Below, piece after piece: positions 807 to 18,729 of a stretch of 25,822 nucleotides of DNA. Source of the DNA: a virus; IMG/VR virus record IMGVR_UViG_3300034104_002124, positions 1-25,822 of that record; one strand, given 5' to 3'. Each line of letters begins with the position of its first letter. Positions within the stretch are counted from its first letter, which is position 1. Under the pieces are notes generated by a model, which did not search any database, was not told the DNA's origin, and saw only the letters and a list, made by a program, of their open reading frames with translations. Both the position numbers and the translations under genes were made by a program.

Positions 807-1682
807 ATGGCAATAACTTTAAGAAACACTAAAGGCATCCCGTTAACCACTGAGGAACTGGATCAAAACTTTAGTGAAATTAGTACAAAAATAGATTCCA
901 GTTCTTTAGGATCTGGTGTGGCTACTTTTTTGGGTACACCTTCTAGTGCAAACTTATTAGCGGCAATAACTAATGAAACAGGAACTGGTGCGTTAGTATT
1001 TGCTACTAGCCCCACATTAGTAACACCAGCACTTGGTACTCCAACAAGCGGTACTTTGACAAACGTAACTGGTCTTCCAATAGCAACTGGTGTGTCTGGT
1101 CTTGGTACGGGTGTAGCAACCTTTCTTGCTACACCTTCTAGTGCAAACTTATTAGCGGCAGTAACTAATGAAACAGGAACTGGTGCGTTAGTGTTTGCAA
1201 ACTCACCCACATTAGTAACACCAGCACTTGGTACTCCAGCGAGTGGTACTGTAACAAATTTAACTGGCACAGCATCTATTAATATTAACGGCACGGTGGG
1301 CGCTACAACAGCAACAACTGGAAATTTTACTAATATCACTGGAAACAATTTAGTAAATACTGTTATTCGAGGCAAAGTTCAAGCACTCGGTAGTATTTCA
1401 GGTGCAGTTACTATAAATATGTCACTTGGTGATACAGTTACTGCGACAATTACGGGCAATACCACATTTTCAATAACTGGTCTTACTAGTGGTTCAACGA
1501 ACACAGTTTATCTTATATTAACCAACAGTGGCGCTGGTACCATTACTTATCCAACAGGTACTACGTTTAATCGAGGAGTTGCTCCAATTACAAGTGCAAC
1601 AGGCAAAACTTTAATTATTCTAGACACTGTAGATAATGGGACTACTTATATGGGTGTTCAATCTTGGCGTAGTTACGCATAA
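807..1682 (+). CDS. Repeat-containing tail-fibre-like structural protein
   Basis: A 291-residue protein. The N-terminus (residues 1-31) has the 'LTTEELDQNF' pattern that opens many phage tail-fibre or virion-fibre proteins. Residues about 38-155 hold two copies of a 65-residue repeat with the core TPSSANLLAA..TNETGTGALVF followed by 'SPTLVTPALGTP' and 'SGT.TN.TG'; the copies are also close at the DNA level (195-base offset). The C-terminal region (about 190-291) is Thr/Gly-rich, probably beta-structured, with 'GAGTITYPTG' and a final 'YMGVQSWRSYA'. This repeat is widespread in marine phage fibre proteins, but its exact receptor role is unknown. It has an AGGA site upstream and is followed after 9 bases by the Thr-rich gene, which suggests co-expression. 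Confidence 0.75.
   Translation: MAITLRNTKGIPLTTEELDQNFSEISTKIDSSSLGSGVATFLGTPSSANLLAAITNETGTGALVFATSPTLVTPALGTPTSGTLTNVTGLPIATGVSGLGTGVATFLATPSSANLLAAVTNETGTGALVFANSPTLVTPALGTPASGTVTNLTGTASININGTVGATTATTGNFTNITGNNLVNTVIRGKVQALGSISGAVTINMSLGDTVTATITGNTTFSITGLTSGSTNTVYLILTNSGAGTITYPTGTTFNRGVAPITSATGKTLIILDTVDNGTTYMGVQSWRSYA
918..1265 (+). repeat. Two 195-bp repeats in the fibre-like gene
   Basis: The segment around 941 and that around 1136 are near-identical copies, 195 bases (65 codons) apart, covering 'TPSSANLLAA' to 'SGT'. Such in-frame repeats allow fibre length to change by recombination. Confidence 0.8.
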
Positions 1683-1691
1683 GGATTTGTT

Positions 1692-3191
1692 ATGAGCTGG
1701 ACTAGAAAATTATTTACATCTGGTGGAAATAATACCAGTGTAGAAACAAGTTTCCCAACTAATACCACTACAAGTTGGAATACAAATACTACTAGATTAA
1801 CTAATATTCTAACTAGTAGAAGTACCACTACTGTTTGGGAAATTCCAGGTAACACAACTACTACATTTTTAACTAGTAGAACAACATCTGGAAATACTAG
1901 TTTTTCAACTTTAACTACTTTTCCGACTTTAACTACTTTTTCAACAGATACATTGTATTCAACAAATACATTGTATTCAACTAATACACCTGTTCCAACA
2001 ACTACTAACTGGAATACAAGCACTACTTTTTCAACAAATACTCCTGTTCCAACAACCACTGACTGGAACACACTATTAACTGCATATACAGTTCCTACTA
2101 CTTATTCATTAGGAAATACTTCTAGAAATACAACCACTACTTTTCAAACTTCTAGAATTACAAGCGGGTTTACTTTTATTAATACTTCTAGAAATACAAC
2201 CACTACTTTTCAAACTTCTACAAATACAAGCAGAAGCACTACTACATCTTGGTCTAGTTCTTTTAATTTTAATACTACTACATGTTGGCAAACAAATGCG
2301 AACACTTGTAGAAGTACTGACATAGGTATAACCACTTTTCAAACAAGTTTTAATACTAATTTTAATGATACTAATAATGGGTGTATTAATTATAATACAT
2401 ATGGGCAAGAAACATCCAGAGACTCACCTTCTCCTGGATGTACATTACAGTCATGCGACTTAATTAGTCAAACATATGATTCTTATATATCTCCCGAAGA
2501 CGGAGAGACAGAACTTCAATATCTGGCACAGGAATGCTATAGTTGTGCTGTTAACTGTAATGTTAATACTTCTTCAACTACTACAGCTCCAATTCCTGGT
2601 ACGACTTGTTACGATACTTTTTTTAACACTTGTCGGTCAACAAATACATCAGGAACAACAACTGCTAGTAGAAACACTACTACTAATTATACTACATTTT
2701 GGAACTCAAGCCGGCTTACCAATACAGAGTTTGGAACAAATACTACTTTTTTCTCAAATGCTACATTTTGGAATACAAGTAAGTCAACAACTACAAATTG
2801 GACTACAAATTCATCTGTTTCAACTAATGTAGAAGAATATATAAATACTTCTAGAAGTACAAATTCATCTGTTTCAACGAACACTTCTGCGCTTACAAAC
2901 ACTTCTAGAAGCACGAATACGCCGTATTCGACAAATACACCGTATCCAACAAATACACCATATCCGACCAATACTAGTAGAAACACCAATACTACTAGTA
3001 ACACTTTAACAACTGCGTCAGGTACTTTTACAACTGATTTTAATACAAATAGAACAACATCGACAACAAATACTTTTAGTCAAAATACGACTACTCAATT
3101 TACAACAGAAGCAACAACTTCTTGGCAAACTCAATACTCATCGAATACAACAACTACTACCAGTAGAACCACCAGCTGGATAACTGAATAA
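1692..3191 (+). CDS. Thr/Asn/Ser-rich hexapeptide-repeat protein with Cys-rich core
   Basis: A 499-residue protein I cannot assign to a named family. Most of it is Thr, Asn and Ser in a pattern of about six residues, for example STNTLY-STNTLY-STNTPV at about residues 90-107 and TNTPYS/TNTPYP runs at about 405-427, with an aromatic or Pro/Val residue recurring. 'TSR[ST/NT]T' units are frequent. Residues about 198-314 break the pattern and carry ten cysteines (198, 206, 231, 250, 255, 282, 285, 289, 306, 314). I see no signal peptide, hydrophobic segment or catalytic motif. TxT arrays of this type can form regular beta-solenoids, as in insect antifreeze proteins, but that is inference. The AAGGA site near 1682 and the position between fibre genes suggest an exposed virion part. 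The base composition gives long mirror-strand open frames, which are shadows. Confidence 0.8.
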   Translation: MSWTRKLFTSGGNNTSVETSFPTNTTTSWNTNTTRLTNILTSRSTTTVWEIPGNTTTTFLTSRTTSGNTSFSTLTTFPTLTTFSTDTLYSTNTLYSTNTPVPTTTNWNTSTTFSTNTPVPTTTDWNTLLTAYTVPTTYSLGNTSRNTTTTFQTSRITSGFTFINTSRNTTTTFQTSTNTSRSTTTSWSSSFNFNTTTCWQTNANTCRSTDIGITTFQTSFNTNFNDTNNGCINYNTYGQETSRDSPSPGCTLQSCDLISQTYDSYISPEDGETELQYLAQECYSCAVNCNVNTSSTTTAPIPGTTCYDTFFNTCRSTNTSGTTTASRNTTTNYTTFWNSSRLTNTEFGTNTTFFSNATFWNTSKSTTTNWTTNSSVSTNVEEYINTSRSTNSSVSTNTSALTNTSRSTNTPYSTNTPYPTNTPYPTNTSRNTNTTSNTLTTASGTFTTDFNTNRTTSTTNTFSQNTTTQFTTEATTSWQTQYSSNTTTTTSRTTSWITE

Positions 3192-3203: not shown

Positions 3204-3707
3204 ATGTTATATGCTAGAATAAATGTAGAAACTAACGAGGTGTTAGAATATCCTATAAATGAGGTTAAATTGCGTGATCACTTGGTGAATACTTCTCTGC
3301 CAAGAGTTATCACAGATTTTTCTTTAGCGGGAACACAATATGTTTGTGTGCCACCTGTACCTTTTGATAGTATAACTTTAAGACCAACAGAAACCCATCA
3401 GTTAGAAACCACTTCAGCATATTATGATGATGAAACTGATACATGGGTTAGAGTATATGAATTGGTTGAAGTTAGGCCTTCTAAAAGAGCTATTAGAACT
3501 GAATTTCGCTGGAAAGAACTTTCTAAAAGAAGAGCAGCAGCACTGTCAAAACTAGATGCTAAAATTATGCGTAACCTGAGTGAAACTAGACAGGGGTTAG
3601 CTACTACTGAAAATATTGAAGACTTAGATGCCAAAGCACAAGAGTTGAGAGATATGACAAATTTAGATGCATGGGATATTGACGAAAGAACCTTTTTTGA
3701 TGTATAA
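3204..3707 (+). CDS. Tail-fibre-assembly-like small protein
   Basis: A 167-residue protein with a strong AGGAG site 8 bases before the ATG. The N-terminal half (about 1-95) is mixed and beta-rich: it opens MLYARINVETNEVLEYPI, a pattern like phage proteins that follow fibre genes, and includes 'LAGTQYVCVPP'. The C-terminal half (about 100-160) is strongly helical and charged, with 'AKAQELRDMTNLDAWDI' near the end, resembling the helical tails of tail-fibre-assembly chaperones. The position directly after two fibre-like genes supports an assembly or chaperone role for them. I cannot name the family with certainty; a minor virion protein is the alternative. Confidence 0.6.
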   Translation: MLYARINVETNEVLEYPINEVKLRDHLVNTSLPRVITDFSLAGTQYVCVPPVPFDSITLRPTETHQLETTSAYYDDETDTWVRVYELVEVRPSKRAIRTEFRWKELSKRRAAALSKLDAKIMRNLSETRQGLATTENIEDLDAKAQELRDMTNLDAWDIDERTFFDV

Positions 3708-3740: not shown

Positions 3741-4712
3741 ATGATGCAATCGTTAGAATTAGAACCAAAAAGTGAAGAAGATGTCAAGCCCCTTCTCATA
3801 GAAAATAAAATGTCTGACAGGTATAATGAGCGAAAAAAGATCGGTCCTTATGCCTCAAGATCAGAAAGAAATGCATGGGCAGTAGAAAATGAAGATTTGG
3901 TTCGTTCATTATCTCCTTGGCCCATTACCTATGATGTGGGTGCAATTCAAGGCAATGATTTTAGCGAATTTACTTATACAGAATTTGCCGGCGGCGGCAT
4001 ATGGGTAAACACTCAATCTAGGGAAATAAACTGCCGTCTGATTGACTTTGCATCTAAAGTTGATTCTGGAAAAGAAGGTGAAGAATTATTTGAAAAATTT
4101 GTAGCTTCTTTTTCTGATAAGTATGTGATGGAAGAACTTGATGAGAAATATAAAAACATTAAACATGTTGTATTTTTACCTGGACATAATCTTTTAGATT
4201 TAGTAGATACTGAAGCATTAACTAAACTATTAAAAGAAGAAGATGATGTTCAAGTAAAACCTCATCCACTGACACATGGAGATGCTATTCGATTAGTATC
4301 AAGAAGATGTGGTTGGCAAAAGGTACTTCCTAAAAACATTTCAGGTGCTAAACTACTTGAACAATGTGAAACAGTTTACAGTACCACTGCATCTGAAATG
4401 ATTATCACTGGTGCTGCGCTAGGAAAAACTGTTTACGATCTTTCAGTATACAGTGCATCGGGTGCAGGAGTGTATCAACCCATTCATCGTGTCATTTCAT
4501 ATCTACAAAAAAGAGAAGGAAAGGAAGCTGCAAAAAAAGCAATTGCTAATATTATTGCTTGCCCTTGGTCAGGGGTAGTTTTCAAATTTCATGATAACTA
4601 TGAAGAAAGAATAAAAATGTATTTTGATAAAGCACTGGAACTAAGAGAATTGTATCGTCCACTGTCTTGTGGTCGTGGTGATTTAGATAAAAAGAAAGAT
4701 GTTAAAAAATGA
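3741..4712 (+). CDS. Possible GT-B-like polysaccharide/glycosyl transferase
   Basis: A 323-residue protein, charged at both ends. The central part (about residues 140-245) looks like the C-terminal nucleotide-sugar half of GT-B or capsule-transfer enzymes: 'VVFLPGHN' strand, 'VQVKPHPLTHGD' (an HP motif), 'LLEQCETVYSTTASEMIITG' and then 'GKTVYDLS'. That order (HP, Ser-rich loop, Glu on a helix, G-K-x-V-x-D) resembles KpsC/KpsS and CDP-glycerol transferases. This is an analogy, not a confirmed hit, and the first 100 residues are not recognised. The gene sits behind fibre genes and overlaps the next one by ATGA, so the two are translationally coupled. Two adjacent ATGs (3741, 3744) are possible starts, and an in-frame ATG at 3810 is another option. 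It might modify a virion protein or act on host glycans. Confidence 0.45.
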   Translation: MMQSLELEPKSEEDVKPLLIENKMSDRYNERKKIGPYASRSERNAWAVENEDLVRSLSPWPITYDVGAIQGNDFSEFTYTEFAGGGIWVNTQSREINCRLIDFASKVDSGKEGEELFEKFVASFSDKYVMEELDEKYKNIKHVVFLPGHNLLDLVDTEALTKLLKEEDDVQVKPHPLTHGDAIRLVSRRCGWQKVLPKNISGAKLLEQCETVYSTTASEMIITGAALGKTVYDLSVYSASGAGVYQPIHRVISYLQKREGKEAAKKAIANIIACPWSGVVFKFHDNYEERIKMYFDKALELRELYRPLSCGRGDLDKKKDVKK

Positions 4713-4885
4713 AACCTGAACATCGAAAAAGAGCAGAGATATGTAATTCTTGTGAACACTTAAATAAAACAATAAGTGTTTGCAAGAAATGTGGTTGCTT
4801 CATGCCCGCCAAAACCCGTTTAAACTGGGCATCATGTCCAGTTGGCAAATGGGATAAAATAATCATCAAAGAAATTAAAGAATAG
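4709..4885 (+). CDS. 58-residue zinc-ribbon protein
   Basis: A short open frame of 58 codons whose ATG overlaps the TGA of the upstream gene (ATGA). It has two Cys pairs, C12-x2-C15 and C25-x2-C28, with extra C30 and C43 in 'CKKCGCFM' and 'CPVGKW'. Four of these can bind one zinc ion in a ribbon. I remember similar tiny 'ICxxC...CxxCGCFM..K.....CPxGKW' proteins in marine T4-like phages, where their role is unknown. Coupled translation suggests it works with, or is dosed with, the glycosyltransferase-like protein. Too short to be listed by most length cut-offs, but the motif is clear. Confidence 0.8.
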   Translation: MKPEHRKRAEICNSCEHLNKTISVCKKCGCFMPAKTRLNWASCPVGKWDKIIIKEIKE

Positions 4886-10547: not shown

Positions 10548-12455
10548 ATGCCTCAAATAAATGTAACCGAATTAGATTTTGATAATATAAAACAAAATTT
10601 AAAAACCTTTATGCAATCTCAAGCAGAATTCTCAGATTATAATTTTGAAGGATCTGCGTTGTCTGTTTTATTGGATACCTTAGCATATAACACTCACTAC
10701 AATGCAGTTCTTGCACACTTGTTAGCAAATGAATCATTTTTAGATTCAGCAATAAAGAGAACATCTGTGGTATCCTTAGCTAAAACTTTAGGGTATACTC
10801 CTCGTTCTAGAAGATGCCCTGTTGCAACAATAAACTTTACTATTACACCTTCTGGTGCATATACTAGTAGCACATATACTTTACCCAGAGACACTGTTTT
10901 TACGACATCGTTAAATGGTACTTCATATACTTTCGTCCCATCAGAAGCAGTCACTGCTACTTTACAAGATGTTTCAGGTACAGGTAAATTTGTTTTTTCT
11001 AATCTTAAACTGAAAGAAGGCAAAAGAATATCAAATAGTTTTCTAATTGCTGCTGAAAAAGAATTAGACCCTGTTATTATACCGAACAAAGATGTAGACA
11101 CTTCCACTTTAAGAGTTAGGGTTCAAACATCAGGATCAAATTTTAACTTTGAAACATATGTGTTACATACTGGTATTTTAGACATAGACGAATCTTCAAA
11201 AGTTTATTTTCTTGAAGAAACAATAGAAGGATTGTATTCTATTACATTTGGTGATGATGTAATAGGTAAGCAATTAACTGCTGGTAATGTTGTTATTGTA
11301 GATTATATAAACACAAATGGAGTTACTGCAAATGGAGCAAAAACTTTTACTTGTTCAGCAACTTTAACAGGTGGAGGTGAAATTAAGGCTTATAGTGGAA
11401 ACGTTGCAGCCTCAGGCGGGCAAAATAAAGAAAGTATAGACAGCATTAAAATCAACGCCCCTAAATATAATTCTGCTAGAGAAAGAGGAGTAACTGCCTC
11501 TGATTACAAATCTTTAATATTAGCAAGTAATGAAAACATTCAGTCTTGCTCAGTGTGGGGCGGTGAAAGTAATGATCCTCCCATTTATGGTAAGGTCTTT
11601 ATTTCATTAGACCCTATTCCTGGGCAAATTATAACACAGCAAGATAAAGATAATATTGTAAGTAACATTATTGATCCAAGAGGATCTATTGCAATTCTAC
11701 CTGAGTTTGTTGATCCAGAGTATACATTTATTACATTGAAAGTAGGAGTTGTTTATAATGTTAATGCAACATCACTTACTCCTGGGCAACTTTCTTCTTC
11801 AGTATCAAGTGCAATTTCAACATTTTTTAACACTGAACTTAATATATTAAATAAAAACTTTTATTTTTCTGCATTGCATACCATTATTAAAGGTGTTTCT
11901 AATTCAATTATTTCAATAAACATTATTCCGTCTTTACAAAAGAGAATAGAAATATTAGATTTTGACAGAGATGTAAATTATACTTTTACGTTTAATTCCA
12001 GAGTACAACCAAGAGAATTACATAGCACTTGGTTTAATTATACGAATAATGACGCGACAAATAAAGTAAAATTACAAGATGTTCCTAATGCAGATGTTGT
12101 CTCACCTGAGTATAATGGATTTGGTACTGTATTTTTACAATCTGATTCTGGTTTTAAAATTCGAGATATAGGAACAATTGATTATTCAACTGGTAAAATT
12201 ACAATTCTTGCTATGAGAGTGTCTGCTCTTTTTGGTAATGAAACCGCTATTCGTGTAAGTATTAGACCTCATGATGATGTTAATGACATATTAACAACTA
12301 CCTTAACAAGAACTGCTCAAGTATCTACAGCAGCAGTTATACCAACTCCTTCTAAAAATACAGTTCTAGCATTGGATGATACAGTACAAAGTACATTAAC
12401 TGGTGCAAGAACAGGATTGCAAATAAACATAATACCTAAGGCAGAAGGGTTTTAA
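10548..12455 (+). CDS. gp6: Baseplate wedge subunit, T4 gp6 / baseplate J family
   Basis: A 635-residue protein, near T4 gp6 (660 aa). The N-terminus is typical: 'LDFDNIKQNLKTFMQSQAEF' (about 8-27), 'SALSVLLDTLAYNTHYNAVL' (about 36-55), 'ANESFLDSAIKRTSVVSLAK' and 'LGYTPRSRRCP'. The middle has 'YSITFGDDVIGKQLTAGNVV', 'ARERGVTASDYKSLILAS' (baseplate-J signature), and the C-terminus ends in a beta-rich part with Thr-rich linkers. gp6 dimers make the iris that holds the baseplate and opens on sheath contraction. The stop overlaps the gp7 ATG by one base (TAATG). Confidence 0.9.
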   Translation: MPQINVTELDFDNIKQNLKTFMQSQAEFSDYNFEGSALSVLLDTLAYNTHYNAVLAHLLANESFLDSAIKRTSVVSLAKTLGYTPRSRRCPVATINFTITPSGAYTSSTYTLPRDTVFTTSLNGTSYTFVPSEAVTATLQDVSGTGKFVFSNLKLKEGKRISNSFLIAAEKELDPVIIPNKDVDTSTLRVRVQTSGSNFNFETYVLHTGILDIDESSKVYFLEETIEGLYSITFGDDVIGKQLTAGNVVIVDYINTNGVTANGAKTFTCSATLTGGGEIKAYSGNVAASGGQNKESIDSIKINAPKYNSARERGVTASDYKSLILASNENIQSCSVWGGESNDPPIYGKVFISLDPIPGQIITQQDKDNIVSNIIDPRGSIAILPEFVDPEYTFITLKVGVVYNVNATSLTPGQLSSSVSSAISTFFNTELNILNKNFYFSALHTIIKGVSNSIISINIIPSLQKRIEILDFDRDVNYTFTFNSRVQPRELHSTWFNYTNNDATNKVKLQDVPNADVVSPEYNGFGTVFLQSDSGFKIRDIGTIDYSTGKITILAMRVSALFGNETAIRVSIRPHDDVNDILTTTLTRTAQVSTAAVIPTPSKNTVLALDDTVQSTLTGARTGLQINIIPKAEGF

Positions 12456-15400
12456 TGTCCAGTAGAATACCTGAATATTCTAGATATGTTTCTTCAATCA
12501 CTATCACCAATGGTGGTAGTGGATTTAGTATTCCCCCAACAATCACAATATCAGGTGGGGGTGGAACTGGTGCAACTGCATCTGCTTCTGTATTTAATGG
12601 TATCATACAAACAGTAACTATAACAGAAGAAGGATCAGGTTACACAACATCACCCACAGTAACTGTAACAGGTGGTGGTGGATCAGGTGCAGTACTAGTT
12701 GCAGTATTGTCTTTTGCTGCATTACCCACAACAGAATATCAAGAAATTTCTAGTTTAGGTATCAAGTATACTTTACCCGAATTTATCAGAGAAGACTATC
12801 CTGACTTTGTAACTTTTTTAGAAAAATATTATGAGTTCATGGACCAGACAAATAACCCTGATCAGCTTTTACTCAATAAACGATATTATGATATTGATGA
12901 TTTAAATGATGCTGAATTAAATAAAAAGGCACTAGAATTTGCTAAAGATTTTCCACAAGTTTTAGCAATAGAAAAAAAGAAATTATTTAAAAATATTAAA
13001 AGTTTATATGAGTCTAAAGGCAGTGAGAGGTCAATCAAGGCATTTTTCAGACTAGTATACGATGAAGAAATAGAATTATCTTATCCTACTCAGTTTATTT
13101 TGAGAGCGTCTGATGGTATTTGGCGACAAGATAATTCCGTCAAAGTATTATTGGGATATGAAGATCACAGACCTACAAATTTATATGCTAAAGCAATAGA
13201 CATTCTATATTATGAATCTATAGGATATACTGGAAGTATTCCTAATCGTAGAGCAATTACAGAACCAAAGAGAATATCAACTGCGGTTGTTAGAGCAAAT
13301 AAAATTGCATATACAACCCCAAGTAAGTACGAACTATTCTTAGAACTTCCGAGATCGGTGACTAGTATTCCCGGTCCAGGAACTGGTGCTGCTGCTACTT
13401 TAACTATTGTCAGCGGTGTAATTACAGCAGTAACTTTAACATCTGGTGGTTCTGGATATTTAGCTGCTCCAGATGTAATTATAACAAGTACTGGCAGTGG
13501 TGTTGGTGCGGATATTGTAGCTATCGTAGAAAATGGTAGCGTCACTGGATTCATTATTAACAGTGGAGGTTCTTCTTATGTTAGTGGAACCACTACTATA
13601 GCATTTAATGCTCACTCAATAAATTCAACTGTCGCAACTAGTGGTACTGCTGGTCAATTTACTTGTGGTAAGTCTGCTATTGCTGTTGGTGATCAAGTAA
13701 AAATTACTGGCACACTAGGCGGCACTGGAACAATTTCTGGTTATACTAGCGGCAATGTTTATAAAGTTTCTGCTATTAGTGGATCAGTTACCAGGATTAC
13801 TGTAACGGCTGGAGGTTCTGGTTACACTAGCGATCCTACTGTTGTATTCTCAGGTGGCGGTGGTTCGGGTGCTACAGCTACAGCTACTCGTACAGGTAAC
13901 ATAGTTACTAGTATCAATGTGACGAATGGGGGTTCTGGTTACACCAGCGCACCTACTATTACAATAACCGGTGGTGGTGGTTCTGGTGCTACAGCCACTT
14001 CTGTAGCACCTTTACCTGCTGTGACTAGTTTCACTTTAACCACAACTGATGATATTGCTATCGCAACAACAGCAGGTAGTTTAACTGGTTTAACGTATAC
14101 TGTAAACACAAAAAAGTATTATGAAACAGTTATACTTTTAAAAGATGCGCCAAACACAGAAGCAAATATAAAAGGATATTTAACTAGATGTTTAACTTCA
14201 GTGACATCAGGCGCCTATGCAAATTATTCAGTATCTAGTGTTACTGTAACGGCTGGAGGTTCTGGTTACACTAGCGATCCTACTGTTGCATTCTCCGGGG
14301 GTGGAGGTTCTGGTGCAGCAGCCACTGCTGTACGTGGAACAGTTACCGGTATCACTGTAACGGCTGGAGGTTCTGGTTACACTAGCAATCCTACGGTTGC
14401 AATAACGGGAGGTGGAGGTTCTGGTGCTACAGCTACAGCCACTCGTACAGGCAATGCAGTTACTGGAATCACTATTACAAATGGAGGTACTGGTTATACT
14501 AGCAATCCTACTGTTACAATAACAGGCGGCGCCGGCTCTGGTGCTACAGCCACTGCTGTACGTGGAACGGTTACTAGTGTTACAGTTTCCAATGAAGGAT
14601 CAGGTTATACATCAGTACCAACAGTTGCTTTTACTGGAGGTGCAGGTTCGGGTGCTACAGCTACTGCTGTAATACAAGGCGATGCGGGATTCAAAGTAGG
14701 CGATGTATTTAGTTTTGCTCAAACTGAAAATGATCTTTCATACATTAGAGTTAAAGAAGTGGGAGTTGAAGAACTAGGTGCAATTAATGTTCCTACTTCA
14801 TGGACTATTTTAGCCCCAGGATCTGGGTATACTTCAGCGTCAACAACAGATACTATTACATCAGATACTGGAGAAACTTTACAAATAACTTTGAATTCTG
14901 ATTATCTGTTTGCATATGATGGTTACTATAAAAATGATAGAGGCAAACTATCTAGTTTAAACATTTTACAAGACAATTTTAAATTTCAAAATTATTCTTA
15001 TATAATCAAATCTTCGCTTCCTCAATATATCTGGAATGATGTATTTAGAGAACATATGCATCCAGCAGGAAAAGAGGTATTTGGTGATTTATTTTTAATA
15101 TCTGATTTAGATATTTCAATTGTGTTTAGTACCACTGGGTTAAATCTTAATGAATTTATTACAGAAGATTTGACAGATGCCAGTGATGTACTAGTAATAA
15201 GTTTTAGTACTACACGAGAAGATAGTACTACCAATTCAGATACTTTCACTATATCAATAGAACCGTTTTTTACAGATTCTGTTAGTGCTGCTGAGATTGA
15301 TTTTCAAGACTATGGTCCAGAGGATTATTTTCCTGAAGGATATACGGGAATTATTGCTATTATTAAAAACGTAGAAAAATCACTTTTAGATTCTTCTACA

Positions 15401-16648
15401 ACTAGTGATGTTGCTAGTATAAATATGAGTTGGAATAGAACATTTACAGATCCATTTGGATTTGGAACAAATCCTTCAGCAGATGATACTGTAGTAATAG
15501 AAACAATTTGGACAAGAAGTTTAGAAGATTCAACAACTGAAATAGACGATACAGTTGCAATAGGAACAGCAAGAAGTATTGCAGATTCAACAACTGAAAT
15601 AGACGATACAGTTGCAATAGAAACAGCAAGTAGTTTTGCAGATTCAACAACTGAAATAGACGATACAGTTGCAATAGGAACAGCAAGAAGTATTGCAGAT
15701 TCAACAACTGAAATAGACGATACAGTTGCAATAGGAACAGCAAGAAGTATTGCAGATTCAACAACTGAAATAGATGATATTGCAGTAATAGAAACAACTT
15801 GGACAAGAAGTATTGCAGATTCAACAACTGAAATAGATGATATTGCAGTAATAGAAACAGCAAGAAGTTTTGAAGATTCAACTGTTGCAATAAACGATAT
15901 TGCAGTAATAGAAACAACTTGGACAAGAAGTTTAGAAGATTCAACAACTGAAATAGACGATACAGTTGCAATAGGAACAGCAAGTAGTTTTGAAGATGCT
16001 AGTGCTGCTGCTGATATTGATTCTGGTGTTCAAGATTATGGTCCAGAGGATTATTTTCCTGAAGGATATACGGGAATTATTGCTATTATTAAAAACGTAG
16101 GAAAATCACTTTTAGATTCTTCCATAACTAGTGATGCTGCTAGTATAAATATGAGTTGGAATAGAACATTTACAGATCCATTTGGATTTGGAACAAATCC
16201 TTCAGCAGATGATATTGCAGTAATAGAAACAACTTGGACAAGAAGTTTAGAAGATTCAACAACTGCAATAAACGATAATGCAGTAATAGAAACAGCAAGA
16301 AGTATTGCAGATTCAACAACTGCAATAGATGAAATCGAAATATTAAGAGGAAAAGGTTTTGAAGATTCAACAACTGCAATAGATGATATTGCAGTAATAG
16401 AAATGGAATGGACAAGAAGTTTTGAAGATTCAACAACTGCAATAGATGATATTGCAGTAATAGAAATGGAATGGACAAGAAGTTTTGAAGATTCAACAAC
16501 TGCAATAGATGGAATAGCAATAATAAAGGAAATAGATTTTGAAGATTCAGCAACAGCTTCAGACTCTGGCAGTATAACGTTACTCAATTATATCGACCCA
16601 ACATACTTTTCAGAAGATTATGTTGGTGAAGTTACAAACATAACATAA
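12455..16648 (+). CDS. gp7: Enlarged baseplate wedge protein, gp7-like with repeat insertions
   Basis: A 1397-residue protein; T4 gp7 has 1032. Conserved-looking parts are 'LPEFIREDYPDFVTFLEKYYEFMDQ' split at about residues 107-131, 'FAKDFPQVLAIEKKKLFKNIK' style helix at about 168-188, and 'FAYDGYYKNDRGKLSS' to 'HMHPAGKEVFGD' at about 820-885, as in gp7 of marine T4-like phages. Between them lie insertions: Gly repeats at about 12-86, a mixed block at about 301-551 (Gly repeats nested in a 'GTAGQFTCG' module), and Gly repeats at about 594-744. Residues 892-1397 are an acidic extension of 19/21-residue repeats. gp7 starts wedge assembly in T4; the additions are likely surface decoration. No frameshift is seen: the frame stays open over 4.2 kb. 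Confidence 0.8.
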   Translation: MSSRIPEYSRYVSSITITNGGSGFSIPPTITISGGGGTGATASASVFNGIIQTVTITEEGSGYTTSPTVTVTGGGGSGAVLVAVLSFAALPTTEYQEISSLGIKYTLPEFIREDYPDFVTFLEKYYEFMDQTNNPDQLLLNKRYYDIDDLNDAELNKKALEFAKDFPQVLAIEKKKLFKNIKSLYESKGSERSIKAFFRLVYDEEIELSYPTQFILRASDGIWRQDNSVKVLLGYEDHRPTNLYAKAIDILYYESIGYTGSIPNRRAITEPKRISTAVVRANKIAYTTPSKYELFLELPRSVTSIPGPGTGAAATLTIVSGVITAVTLTSGGSGYLAAPDVIITSTGSGVGADIVAIVENGSVTGFIINSGGSSYVSGTTTIAFNAHSINSTVATSGTAGQFTCGKSAIAVGDQVKITGTLGGTGTISGYTSGNVYKVSAISGSVTRITVTAGGSGYTSDPTVVFSGGGGSGATATATRTGNIVTSINVTNGGSGYTSAPTITITGGGGSGATATSVAPLPAVTSFTLTTTDDIAIATTAGSLTGLTYTVNTKKYYETVILLKDAPNTEANIKGYLTRCLTSVTSGAYANYSVSSVTVTAGGSGYTSDPTVAFSGGGGSGAAATAVRGTVTGITVTAGGSGYTSNPTVAITGGGGSGATATATRTGNAVTGITITNGGTGYTSNPTVTITGGAGSGATATAVRGTVTSVTVSNEGSGYTSVPTVAFTGGAGSGATATAVIQGDAGFKVGDVFSFAQTENDLSYIRVKEVGVEELGAINVPTSWTILAPGSGYTSASTTDTITSDTGETLQITLNSDYLFAYDGYYKNDRGKLSSLNILQDNFKFQNYSYIIKSSLPQYIWNDVFREHMHPAGKEVFGDLFLISDLDISIVFSTTGLNLNEFITEDLTDASDVLVISFSTTREDSTTNSDTFTISIEPFFTDSVSAAEIDFQDYGPEDYFPEGYTGIIAIIKNVEKSLLDSSTTSDVASINMSWNRTFTDPFGFGTNPSADDTVVIETIWTRSLEDSTTEIDDTVAIGTARSIADSTTEIDDTVAIETASSFADSTTEIDDTVAIGTARSIADSTTEIDDTVAIGTARSIADSTTEIDDIAVIETTWTRSIADSTTEIDDIAVIETARSFEDSTVAINDIAVIETTWTRSLEDSTTEIDDTVAIGTASSFEDASAAADIDSGVQDYGPEDYFPEGYTGIIAIIKNVGKSLLDSSITSDAASINMSWNRTFTDPFGFGTNPSADDIAVIETTWTRSLEDSTTAINDNAVIETARSIADSTTAIDEIEILRGKGFEDSTTAIDDIAVIEMEWTRSFEDSTTAIDDIAVIEMEWTRSFEDSTTAIDGIAIIKEIDFEDSATASDSGSITLLNYIDPTYFSEDYVGEVTNIT
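12488..12712 (+). repeat. Gly-rich GGSG-x-x repeats, gp7 N-terminus
   Basis: Two in-frame copies of the pattern 'GGSGF...PPTITISGGGGTGATA' and 'GSGYTTSPTVTVTGGGGSGA' at the very start of gp7 (residues about 12-86). Confidence 0.8.
13636..14106 (+). repeat. 'GTAGQFTCG' module interrupted by Gly repeats in gp7
   Basis: Residues about 396-446 ('[10 protein letters not shown]' to 'VYKVSA') and about 518-551 ('AVTSFTLTTTDD' to 'LTGLTYTV') match, in order, a continuous module in the DUF4815 protein at 20041-20295. In gp7 two Gly-repeat units (13791-14004) sit between the halves. Confidence 0.75.
14233..14685 (+). repeat. Third Gly-rich repeat array in gp7
   Basis: Four tandem units of about 33-37 residues, 'TVTAGGSGYTSDPTV' then 'GGGGSGA.ATA'. 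Some sections repeat exactly in DNA, such as the 'acggctggaggttctggtta' stretch found near 13806, 14250 and 14361. Confidence 0.85.
15305..16265 (+). repeat. Imperfect 235-bp segmental duplication in gp7 tail
   Basis: Bases 15305-15539 and 16031-16265 are nearly identical (same length, 726 bases apart, few substitutions, no indel). Each encodes 'DYGPEDYFPEGYTG' to 'DPFGFGTNPSADD' and the start of the 19/21-residue repeats. Confidence 0.85.
15527..16550 (+). repeat. 57/63-bp tandem repeats encoding acidic 19/21-residue units
   Basis: Units begin at 15527, 15584, 15641, 15698 and 15755 (57 bases: DSTTEIDDTVAIGTARSIA type), then alternate with 63-base units that add Trp-Thr (15755, 15875), and resume after the segmental duplication. 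Bases 16364-16426 and 16427-16489 are a perfect 63-base tandem copy. All units keep the frame. Confidence 0.9.
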
Positions 16649-17124: not shown

Positions 17125-18729
17125 GTGGCATTGTTACTAACAAGATCAGGAAGAGTAGAATTAGCTAGGTCTTTTCATAGAGATATTCTAAACTCTAATG
17201 ATCTTGTATATTTTGCAATTGGTAGAACAACACCTTGGGATGACGAACAACTTCCAGAGGAACCTATTGACTCTAACTATTATCTAAATGAGTTTAGACG
17301 AAATATTATGTTTGTTCAGAAAATTACTTCTGCTAACATATGCCACTTAGCTAGAAGAATAGACTGGACATCTGGAACAGTATATGATCCTTATGATGAT
17401 AGCTATTCTGAAGATAATATCGCTGAGTCTGGAGCCGATAATTTAGCGGATGCTAATTTTTATGTTATAACTAATGATTTTAATGTGTATAAATGTTTAG
17501 ATAATAACAATGGCGCTCAAAGTACTACTAAACCGGAAGGAACAGGACCAACAAATATTGAACATGATGGAAATGGTCAAGATGGGTATATTTGGAAATT
17601 TTTGTTTCAAATATCTCCAGCAGATCGAACTAAATTTTTAGATTCTAATTTTATTCCAGTAAGAAAACTAACAGGAAATCCAACGTTTGATGTTAACGGT
17701 GTACTTGATGCATTAGCGATCACTGCGGGTGGTTCAGGATATAGCACAGCGCCTCAAGTCACTATTGACGGAGACGGCACCGGCGCAGGTGCTAGTTGTA
17801 CTATATCAGGGGGTGCAGTAAATACTATAACTGTAACGGCGGCAGGTTCTGGTTATTCTTTTGCAACTGTGATTTTTATTGGAGGCGGAGGTTCAGGCGC
17901 TACAGCATCAGCAACATTAGGTGTAGCAGATGCATTACCCTCACTTCAATCAGCAGTAGAAAGCACCTCAACCGGTGGTACAATAGGAAGAATTGTTGTA
18001 TCTGATGGTGGCGTAGACTATATTAGTGGAGCTGTTACTGTTGTTATAACTGGTGATGGTTCAGGTGCTACAGCTACTGCCACAGTAGTTGATGGAGAAA
18101 TCACAAACATTACTGTTACTAATGAAGGATCTGAATATACTTTTGCCGATGTCACTTTTTCATCAGCCACTGGTACACTTGCTGTTGCTAGAGCCGTTAT
18201 TGCACCAATTGAAGGTCATGGTTCAAATCCTACTCGTGAATTGTATGCTAGTAGAATAGGCATTGTATCTACTTTATTTGATAAGGACAATGCAGATTTA
18301 ACATTAGGAAATGATTTTAGACAGATTGGTCTTGTTAAAAATTTAAAAGATTATCCTAAAACAGCAAATTTTACATCATCAACAGGCAATGCTTCTTTTA
18401 TAGTTGATGTAGCTACTGGTGCTGCTGGTAATTATGCAGTTGATGATATAATTCTTACAAATGATGCTGTTCCAGGTAAGTTTAGAGTAACACAAAAAAT
18501 TGATAATGTTTCATCTTATAAAATACATCTACAAAAAATTAGAGGTAATATAACCTCAAGTAGTACATTATCAAATGAAACACAAACACTTTCAGGATTA
18601 AGTATAAATAGTCTGACAAACCCTGAATTCAATATTACTTCCGGTGAAATTGTTTATATTGAAAATCGAGTAGCGGTTAATAGAAATGAAAACCAGGCCG
18701 AGACTATAAAAGCAATTGTAACCTTTTAG
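17125..18729 (+). CDS. gp8: Enlarged baseplate wedge protein, gp8-like
   Basis: A 534-residue protein; T4 gp8 has 334. It begins at a GTG with an AGGA site, giving MALLLTRSGRVELARSFHRD; 'YFAIGRTTPWDD' at about 30-41 and 'NGQDGYIWKFLFQISPADRT' at about 151-170 are typical gp8 landmarks. Residues about 196-356 are an insertion of Gly repeats ('ITAGGSGYSTAPQVTIDGDG' type). After it the core resumes with 'GHGSNPTRELYASRIGIVS' and 'DFRQIGLVKNLKDY'. In T4 gp8 dimers bind gp7 and gp10 in the wedge. Without the insertion the length is near T4 gp8. Confidence 0.85.
   Translation: MALLLTRSGRVELARSFHRDILNSNDLVYFAIGRTTPWDDEQLPEEPIDSNYYLNEFRRNIMFVQKITSANICHLARRIDWTSGTVYDPYDDSYSEDNIAESGADNLADANFYVITNDFNVYKCLDNNNGAQSTTKPEGTGPTNIEHDGNGQDGYIWKFLFQISPADRTKFLDSNFIPVRKLTGNPTFDVNGVLDALAITAGGSGYSTAPQVTIDGDGTGAGASCTISGGAVNTITVTAAGSGYSFATVIFIGGGGSGATASATLGVADALPSLQSAVESTSTGGTIGRIVVSDGGVDYISGAVTVVITGDGSGATATATVVDGEITNITVTNEGSEYTFADVTFSSATGTLAVARAVIAPIEGHGSNPTRELYASRIGIVSTLFDKDNADLTLGNDFRQIGLVKNLKDYPKTANFTSSTGNASFIVDVATGAAGNYAVDDIILTNDAVPGKFRVTQKIDNVSSYKIHLQKIRGNITSSSTLSNETQTLSGLSINSLTNPEFNITSGEIVYIENRVAVNRNENQAETIKAIVTF
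17707..18195 (+). repeat. Gly-rich repeat insertion in gp8
   Basis: Four degenerate units with 'GGSGYS', 'GAGAS', '[21 protein letters not shown]' pattern. They are more diverged from one another than those of gp7, so this insertion may be older or less exchanged. Confidence 0.8.
18603..18610 (+). promoter_or_regulatory. Possible late promoter inside gp8, for the giant gene
   Basis: An exact TATAAATA element lies 128 bases before the start of the giant gene, inside the end of gp8. Similar in-gene matches occur elsewhere by chance (1412, 2840, 15418, 16144), so this is a weak call. Confidence 0.25.

Follow-up and report, generated by a model that had tools for sequence, protein, structure and literature searches.

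The stem of the T4 tail-fibre protein gp37 has an HxH iron-binding core. The adhesins AIDA-I and TibA have a repetitive, beta-type passenger, and a transferase gene lies adjacent. In gp37, residues 882-931 and 960-1009 (50 residues each) make up the stem and residues 932-959 the tip, with both termini at the knob (PMC9603124). Many hydroxyl side chains of the TibA adhesin are modified in the cytoplasm by a dedicated transferase, TibC (PMC4358343).

The window analyzed here, a single IMG/VR contig of 25,822 nucleotides (IMGVR_UViG_3300034104_002124), carries a T4-like baseplate cluster (gp48/tail tube cap, gp53, gp5-like hub/lysozyme and gp25) and, at 1692-3191, a threonine-rich repeat (T-repeat) protein that recalls both systems. 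Like the distal tip of gp37 (D10-D11), it would be a terminal tail-fibre segment with a variable tip. The gp37 chain runs out along the stem to a receptor-binding tip and back, and the arm lengths of the T-repeat protein suggest a counterpart of this course. There is no detectable sequence similarity between the two, and the T-repeat protein has no histidine and hence no HxH core. It differs further in its Thr/aromatic tetrads or hexads, its arms of up to 273 residues, its Cys-rich head, and its own gene with a transferase-homologue partner. As sequence relation and histidines are both missing, the likeness to gp37 is one of working principle and not of family membership. With AIDA-I and TibA and their heptosyltransferases (Aah and TibC, BAHT family) the locus shares an adjacent dedicated transferase gene, here a homologue. 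Unlike these adhesins, the T-repeat protein is a phage structural protein in which Pfam finds no autotransporter beta-barrel, and it would be only a presumed substrate of its neighbour; the partner itself belongs to another subgroup than Aah and TibC, has an HP motif and is capsule/sialyltransferase-like.

The ORF at 1692-3191 is not an orphan and belongs to a previously unnamed family of apparent virus attachment fibres, found in several unrelated groups of bacterial viruses. Our main reading, with a probability of roughly 0.6, is that it encodes a stem-and-tip fibre that binds the receptor and has a modifying enzyme of its own. It would form the distal, receptor-binding tail-fibre segment of a T4-like phage, docked by a short basic N-terminal peptide onto the fibre encoded at 807-1682. 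The next ~185 residues would extend as a beta arm whose Thr and Arg/aromatic side chains share one face; a small Cys-rich head would follow, and an antiparallel arm of equal length would lead back, so that both termini lie at the base of the stem and the variable head forms its tip. A single rigid stem is probably built from two or three such chains. In the host cytoplasm, the 3741-4712 product would most likely add sugar to Ser/Thr of the arms, and the chaperone-like 3204-3707 protein would aid folding of the fibre. The features concerned are as follows.

807-1682, plus strand: preceding, more proximal tail-fibre gene (phrog_7760 tail fibre, E 9e-8), in the same position in all members
1692-3191, plus strand: T-repeat fibre protein, 499 residues, intact ORF, putative hairpin fibre
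1692-1727, plus strand: basic N-terminal anchor of 12 residues, MSWTRKLFTSGG, conserved in T4-like members
1728-2282, plus strand: repeat arm 1, residues 13-197 (185 residues), equal in length to arm 2, with one alternation phase along most of the arm
2283-2633, plus strand: Cys-rich head, residues 198-314, with 10 Cys; residues ~220-292 are a predicted folded beta domain
2388-2531, plus strand: hypervariable head loop, residues 233-280, with 39% amino acid identity and pS 0.60 against the related contig L006
2634-3188, plus strand: repeat arm 2, residues 315-499 (185 residues), ending in the conserved cap TSRTTSWITE
3204-3707, plus strand: small gene between fibre and transferase homologue, 167 residues, conserved family A3, probable tail-fibre assembly chaperone
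3741-4712, plus strand: GT-B, HP-motif glycosyltransferase homologue, 323 residues, phrog_26179, partner of the T-repeat fibre
4709-4885, plus strand: Zn-ribbon-like ORF of 58 residues (CNSC...CKKCGCFMPAKTRLNWASCPVGKW), lying after the transferase homologue and before gp48, with similar ORFs in L011, L019 and L049

Copies of the ORF that are 99% identical in three other contigs, divergent orthologues with conserved synteny, and a dN/dS of ~0.5 against L006 indicate a real gene. Its product contains 163 T, 70 S, 61 N, 27 F, 18 R, 17 Y and 12 W and no His, that is 33% Thr, 14% Ser and 12% Asn, with Thr, Ser and Asn together at 59% and Ser plus Thr at 47%. The earlier note had described a Thr/Asn/Ser repeat that patterns about 400 of the 499 residues, and this was borne out by residue-identity autocorrelation, in which the period-6 signal stands far above shuffles (z = 7.3, 7.0 and 7.7 at lags 6, 12 and 18). 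Nearly all odd lags are negative, which points to a beta-type alternation that sorts residues onto two faces over long stretches. The repeat part, about 400 residues, falls into two arms, residues 13-197 and 315-499, on either side of a Cys-rich, T-poor centre that the earlier note had missed. The hexapeptide unit which that note proposed is correct for the window's protein and is a variant of its lineage: the family-wide unit is a tetrad, T-x-[R/Y/F/W]-x-T, with period 4 in most other lineages and lag 4 dominant in Lullwater, BL198, KVP40 and L242. The window protein has 43 occurrences of T.[RYFW].T against 7.8 +/- 2.6 in shuffles, and the motif is enriched, mostly 3- to 9-fold over shuffles, in every protein of a scoring set that left out DLP_6.

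Relatives were found in uncultured T4-like contigs, Caulobacter phages (Lullwater, BL198, Cr30), KVP40-like Vibrio phages and, as a fused domain, Stenotrophomonas phage DLP_6; outside the uncultured T4-like contigs they are mostly recognizable by composition and position only. T4-like members from the locus scan have in common a 12-residue basic start (MSWTRKLFxxGG), a Cys centre and a C-terminal cap (TTSWxTxxSxNTxTTTSRTTxWxT), and the more distant among them are 27-43% identical to the window protein. Similar basic starts are also present in the Caulobacter forms. The cultured-phage proteins of the same build (Lullwater gp41 with 215 residues, BL198 gp046 with 217, Cr30 gp254, KVP40.0254, a V07 gene, and ORFs of F86 and D527) were missed by sequence search and were reached via homologues of the 323-residue neighbour at 3741-4712. 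A tblastn search of the T-repeat protein against cultured phages gave zero matches, probably because low-complexity masking hides the protein; megablast of the whole window against cultured phages likewise gave none, and a C-terminal DNA motif searched in bacterial genomes returned only chance matches in unrelated frames. Pfam, PHROGs and PDB searches with the window protein also gave zero matches, in keeping with the earlier statement that no defined family accommodates it. KVP40.0254 belongs to phrog_30374, a family without recorded function, and the T-repeat proteins of other lineages are in no PHROG. A literature search turned up no description of the T-repeat protein and no paper connecting it with glycosylation.

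Some members are hidden in existing records. Vibrio phages F86 (L248:6921-7526) and D527 (L251:6925-7476) each have a complete T-repeat ORF immediately before the transferase homologue; their records leave it unannotated and give short overlapping CDS in its place. In DLP_6, T-repeat sequence makes up about 570 C-terminal residues of AAY80_265 (L258:8-3874), annotated as a baseplate-wedge protein, and a stretch close to the middle of this domain is free of repeats.

The arms are equal in length across the family. They were compared in 12 members, counting arm 1 from the end of the 12-residue anchor to the first Cys and arm 2 from the last Cys to the C-terminus. The pairs were 185/185 (window), 272/273, 85/86, 186/187, 154/154, 155/156, 262/265, 146/144, 100/104, 165/161, 234/227 and 264/247, so that over arms of 85-273 residues the mean difference is 3.4 residues, where random placement of the head would be expected to give 183. 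The difference is usually at most 4 residues, arm lengths correlate with r=0.993 (13 members), and the 12 anchor residues account for the whole length difference between arm 1 and arm 2 in the window protein. An automatic criterion independent of Cys, the T-poorest stretch, was applied to 20 proteins, among them forms that have just a short turn in the centre, and located the break at a fraction of 0.52 +/- 0.04 along the repeat region. Short forms without the Cys head also turn in mid-protein (KVP40 57/57, Lullwater 100/101, with the turn picked by eye). Equality is imperfect: L019 is off by 17 residues, and L006, excluded from the 12-member test as a near-duplicate of L007, by 25 after the anchor, the latter because 26 residues of one arm are missing. 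This in-frame 26-residue difference in arm 2 of the otherwise near-identical contigs L006 and L007 is the sole clear one-sided arm change between close relatives, for which slippage or assembly collapse are possible origins.

The simplest reading of equal arms around a head is a stem in which both arms of one chain run antiparallel as a hairpin that ends in the head, a fold we infer from primary structure. With straight strands, arms of 185 residues would make a stem of about 60 nm. Alternation phase is mostly single within each arm and is strict over more than 100 residues. A mirror-register test of arm 1 against arm 2 found parity coherent inside the arms and no preferred offset, hence the exact strand register is not fixed. 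Structure prediction, which the earlier note had proposed as a check, was run with AlphaFold2 on the monomer and gave pLDDT below 30 for both arms, and pLDDT 75-91 only over the Cys module (residues ~220-292). The best Foldseek match of the T-repeat model was not below E 0.09, and the predicted head module had no fold match.

Alternatively, the protein could be a largely disordered, heavily glycosylated, mucin-like bristle or spacer in which only the Cys module folds, serving in hydration, shielding or weak glycan contact. The low confidence of the arms beside a confident Cys module would agree with this, and 47% Ser plus Thr next to a glycosyltransferase homologue suits a mucin-like chain. 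We nevertheless consider it unlikely, as such a chain needs neither a strict alternation phase over more than 100 residues nor near-equal arms over a threefold size range, and a spacer is not expected to replace the distal 700 residues of a tail fibre, as described below for Percyvirus.

For the stem-and-tip fibre, the head is where variability would be expected, and it is found there. Cys 231 and Cys 250 are invariant in 13 members. Compared with L006, the window shows 97-98% identity in the flanking fibre, small and transferase genes and 76% in the T-repeat protein; pS reaches 0.60 in the head loop (residues 233-280) and falls to 0.04 in the adjoining residues 281-330. So sharp a drop suggests that the loop was exchanged by recombination, as expected for a receptor-binding tip.

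The gene order in the window is a gp4-like head closure gene on the minus strand, followed on the plus strand by the fibre at 807-1682, the T-repeat gene, the 167-residue gene, the 323-residue gene, the Zn-ribbon ORF and gp48, and the same order recurs in divergent contigs. The C-terminal domain of the 807-1682 fibre weakly resembles the fibres that precede the T-repeat gene in Caulobacter phages (hhalign probability 60, E 9e-5) and is probably the docking partner of the T-repeat protein. The 3204-3707 product is a probable tail-fibre assembly chaperone, a call that leans on the match of its L242 homologue, the sole one to match, to Phage_tail_APC (PF16778; E 4.3e-4, 20.5 bits against a Pfam cut-off of 26.6). 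No chaperone-like gene was found between the T-repeat gene and the transferase homologue in Lullwater and Cr30.

Within Percyvirus, some phages have a classical tail fibre and others, instead of its distal 700 residues, the T-repeat gene and transferase homologue. The fibres of Percy and KSC are 1013 and 1054 residues long, and both phages lack the two genes. BL198 and ERS have a 408-residue fibre, the first ~290 residues of which are 52-60% identical to the Percy and KSC fibres, followed in the same slot before the pinholin by the T-repeat gene and then the transferase homologue. This swap implies that the T-repeat protein stands in for the distal, receptor-binding part of the tail fibre. Against a tail-fibre role, the KVP40 copy lies outside the annotated tail cluster. 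The rigid, possibly glycosylated fibre that the earlier note had offered among its options gains support from gene context, the distal swap and the partner gene.

This partner and the fibre gene form an obligate pair. Where the two are adjacent, the transferase homologue is always downstream, and at every transferase-homologue locus with an intact upstream flank a T-repeat ORF, recognized by an objective motif score, ends no more than 561 bp upstream. All other loci with the transferase homologue alone are contig ends, except in DLP_6, whose repeat forms part of the baseplate-wedge protein far from the transferase homologue; a contig-end stub in L235 still reads the T-repeat C-terminus TSNDTSRSTSRITEWLTTYPQNTEVLTSRSTTWFTQ. 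Among T4-like loci anchored on gp48 that extend 2.5 kb or more upstream, 12/48 have both genes, 36/48 neither and 0/48 one alone, near-duplicates being included so that these are not independent events. The two genes are gained and lost together. More telling than the locus counts are the Percyvirus swap and the independent phage groups: the pair is found in the unrelated cultured phages Lullwater, BL198, Cr30, KVP40, V07, F86 and D527.

We take the 3741-4712 product to be a GT-B glycosyltransferase homologue of the capsule/sialyltransferase-like group, with putative catalysis. K173, H175 and P176 (K-x-H-P) and E219 (Ser/Thr-Glu region) are invariant, or close to it, across 14 divergent sequences. 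Its family resembles KpsC, Capsule_synth (PF05159), GT52 and polysialyltransferases in profile matches that extend over the K-x-H-P to Ser/Thr-Glu region, and differs from this group in being encoded in phage structural clusters beside a Thr-repeat fibre. A profile from diverse homologues matched KpsC (6mgb) at E 0.0076, GT52 was matched by one member (E 5e-4) and Capsule_synth by two (E 1.6e-3), and for most members the matches lie below or near curated cut-offs. On its own, the window's 323-residue protein had no family match in the HP-motif GT-B profile comparisons, and a profile from the first, closely related alignment gave only chance matches against PDB, so a more diverse alignment was needed. 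NCBIfam yielded nothing useful. The structural model is poor (pLDDT 39.7), with top Foldseek matches that are mostly GT-B at TM-scores of ~0.25. Homologues fall in phrog_26179 and phrog_30602, for which PHROGs records neither a function nor a link between the families, phrog_30374 included.

It is also conceivable, at low odds, that the transferase homologue modifies the host surface (O-antigen or capsule, with seroconversion or superinfection exclusion) and that its place beside the fibre reflects matched receptor biology instead of protein glycosylation. Its closest named families, which are of capsule/LPS type, would fit such a role. Against it, the gene sits in the late structural cluster and adjoins the fibre in unrelated phages, is never without the T-repeat gene at intact loci even though the fibres differ, and shows much stronger conservation, at 98% against 76% for the fibre.

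The same obligate pairing and gene order would be expected if the homologue were catalytically inactive and served as a folding chaperone for the T-repeat fibre, and the absence of a separate chaperone-like gene between the pair in Lullwater and Cr30 would agree with that. We regard this as improbable, given the conservation of catalytic-type residues, K-x-H-P and Glu, across the 14 divergent sequences and the separate chaperone-like gene that T4-like members also carry.

A Thr-ladder beta-solenoid that binds ice or glycans, as the earlier note suggested by analogy to insect antifreeze proteins, shares with these the Thr rows at i, i+2 and in the window member the regular T-x-T rows with period 6/18, but is very improbable: most relatives have a tetrad unit and the family no common coil length (unit 4 or 6), bulky Arg and aromatic residues at T+2 break the Thr face every 4-6 residues, the fold match is absent, and the central head with equal arms is left unexplained and favours an out-and-back hairpin.

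Extending the stem-and-tip reading, the family could constitute a new receptor-binding class: a single-chain giant hairpin of Thr-x-aromatic/Arg tetrads with arms of up to ~270 residues and a swappable tip, O-glycosylated by its own CMP-sugar-type transferase, the cassette being mobile among T4-like, Autographiviridae, Cr30 and KVP40 groups. This broader proposal is tentative, and we place it somewhat short of even odds. If true, a low-complexity ORF that goes uncalled or unnamed in annotation would be the host-recognition fibre of several phage groups, and the equal-arm rule would make stem length and tip readable from sequence. Fixed pairing would make glycosylation of a virion protein directly testable in phage adsorption, for which Lullwater or BL198 on Caulobacter crescentus CB15 would offer a simple model.

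In L048 (5132-9733) and L076, the same slot holds another repeat fibre with PGNVASYNAP units, followed by a 2OG-Fe(II) oxygenase (PF13640, E 2e-19) and a GlcNAc-type transferase (PF11397, E 1e-26), both called by Pfam in L048. These enzymes may act on the fibre as a pair, one hydroxylating proline and the other adding sugar. A fibre with a modifying enzyme thus looks recurrent in this slot, which supports action of the transferase homologue on its neighbour and suggests modified repetitive fibres as a general solution.

Two further features of these regions were observed. A radical SAM/SPASM gene lies on the minus strand beside the gp4-like head closure gene in L011 (3449-4414), L019 (1499-2467) and L066 (8343-9308); the call comes from Pfam in L066, and the L011 and L019 genes have the same start. 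In the window, the baseplate-region protein encoded at 12455-16648 has tandem repeats of the DSTTEIDDTVAIGTARSIA type, and repeats recur in 12455-16648, 17125-18729 and from 18739 to the end.
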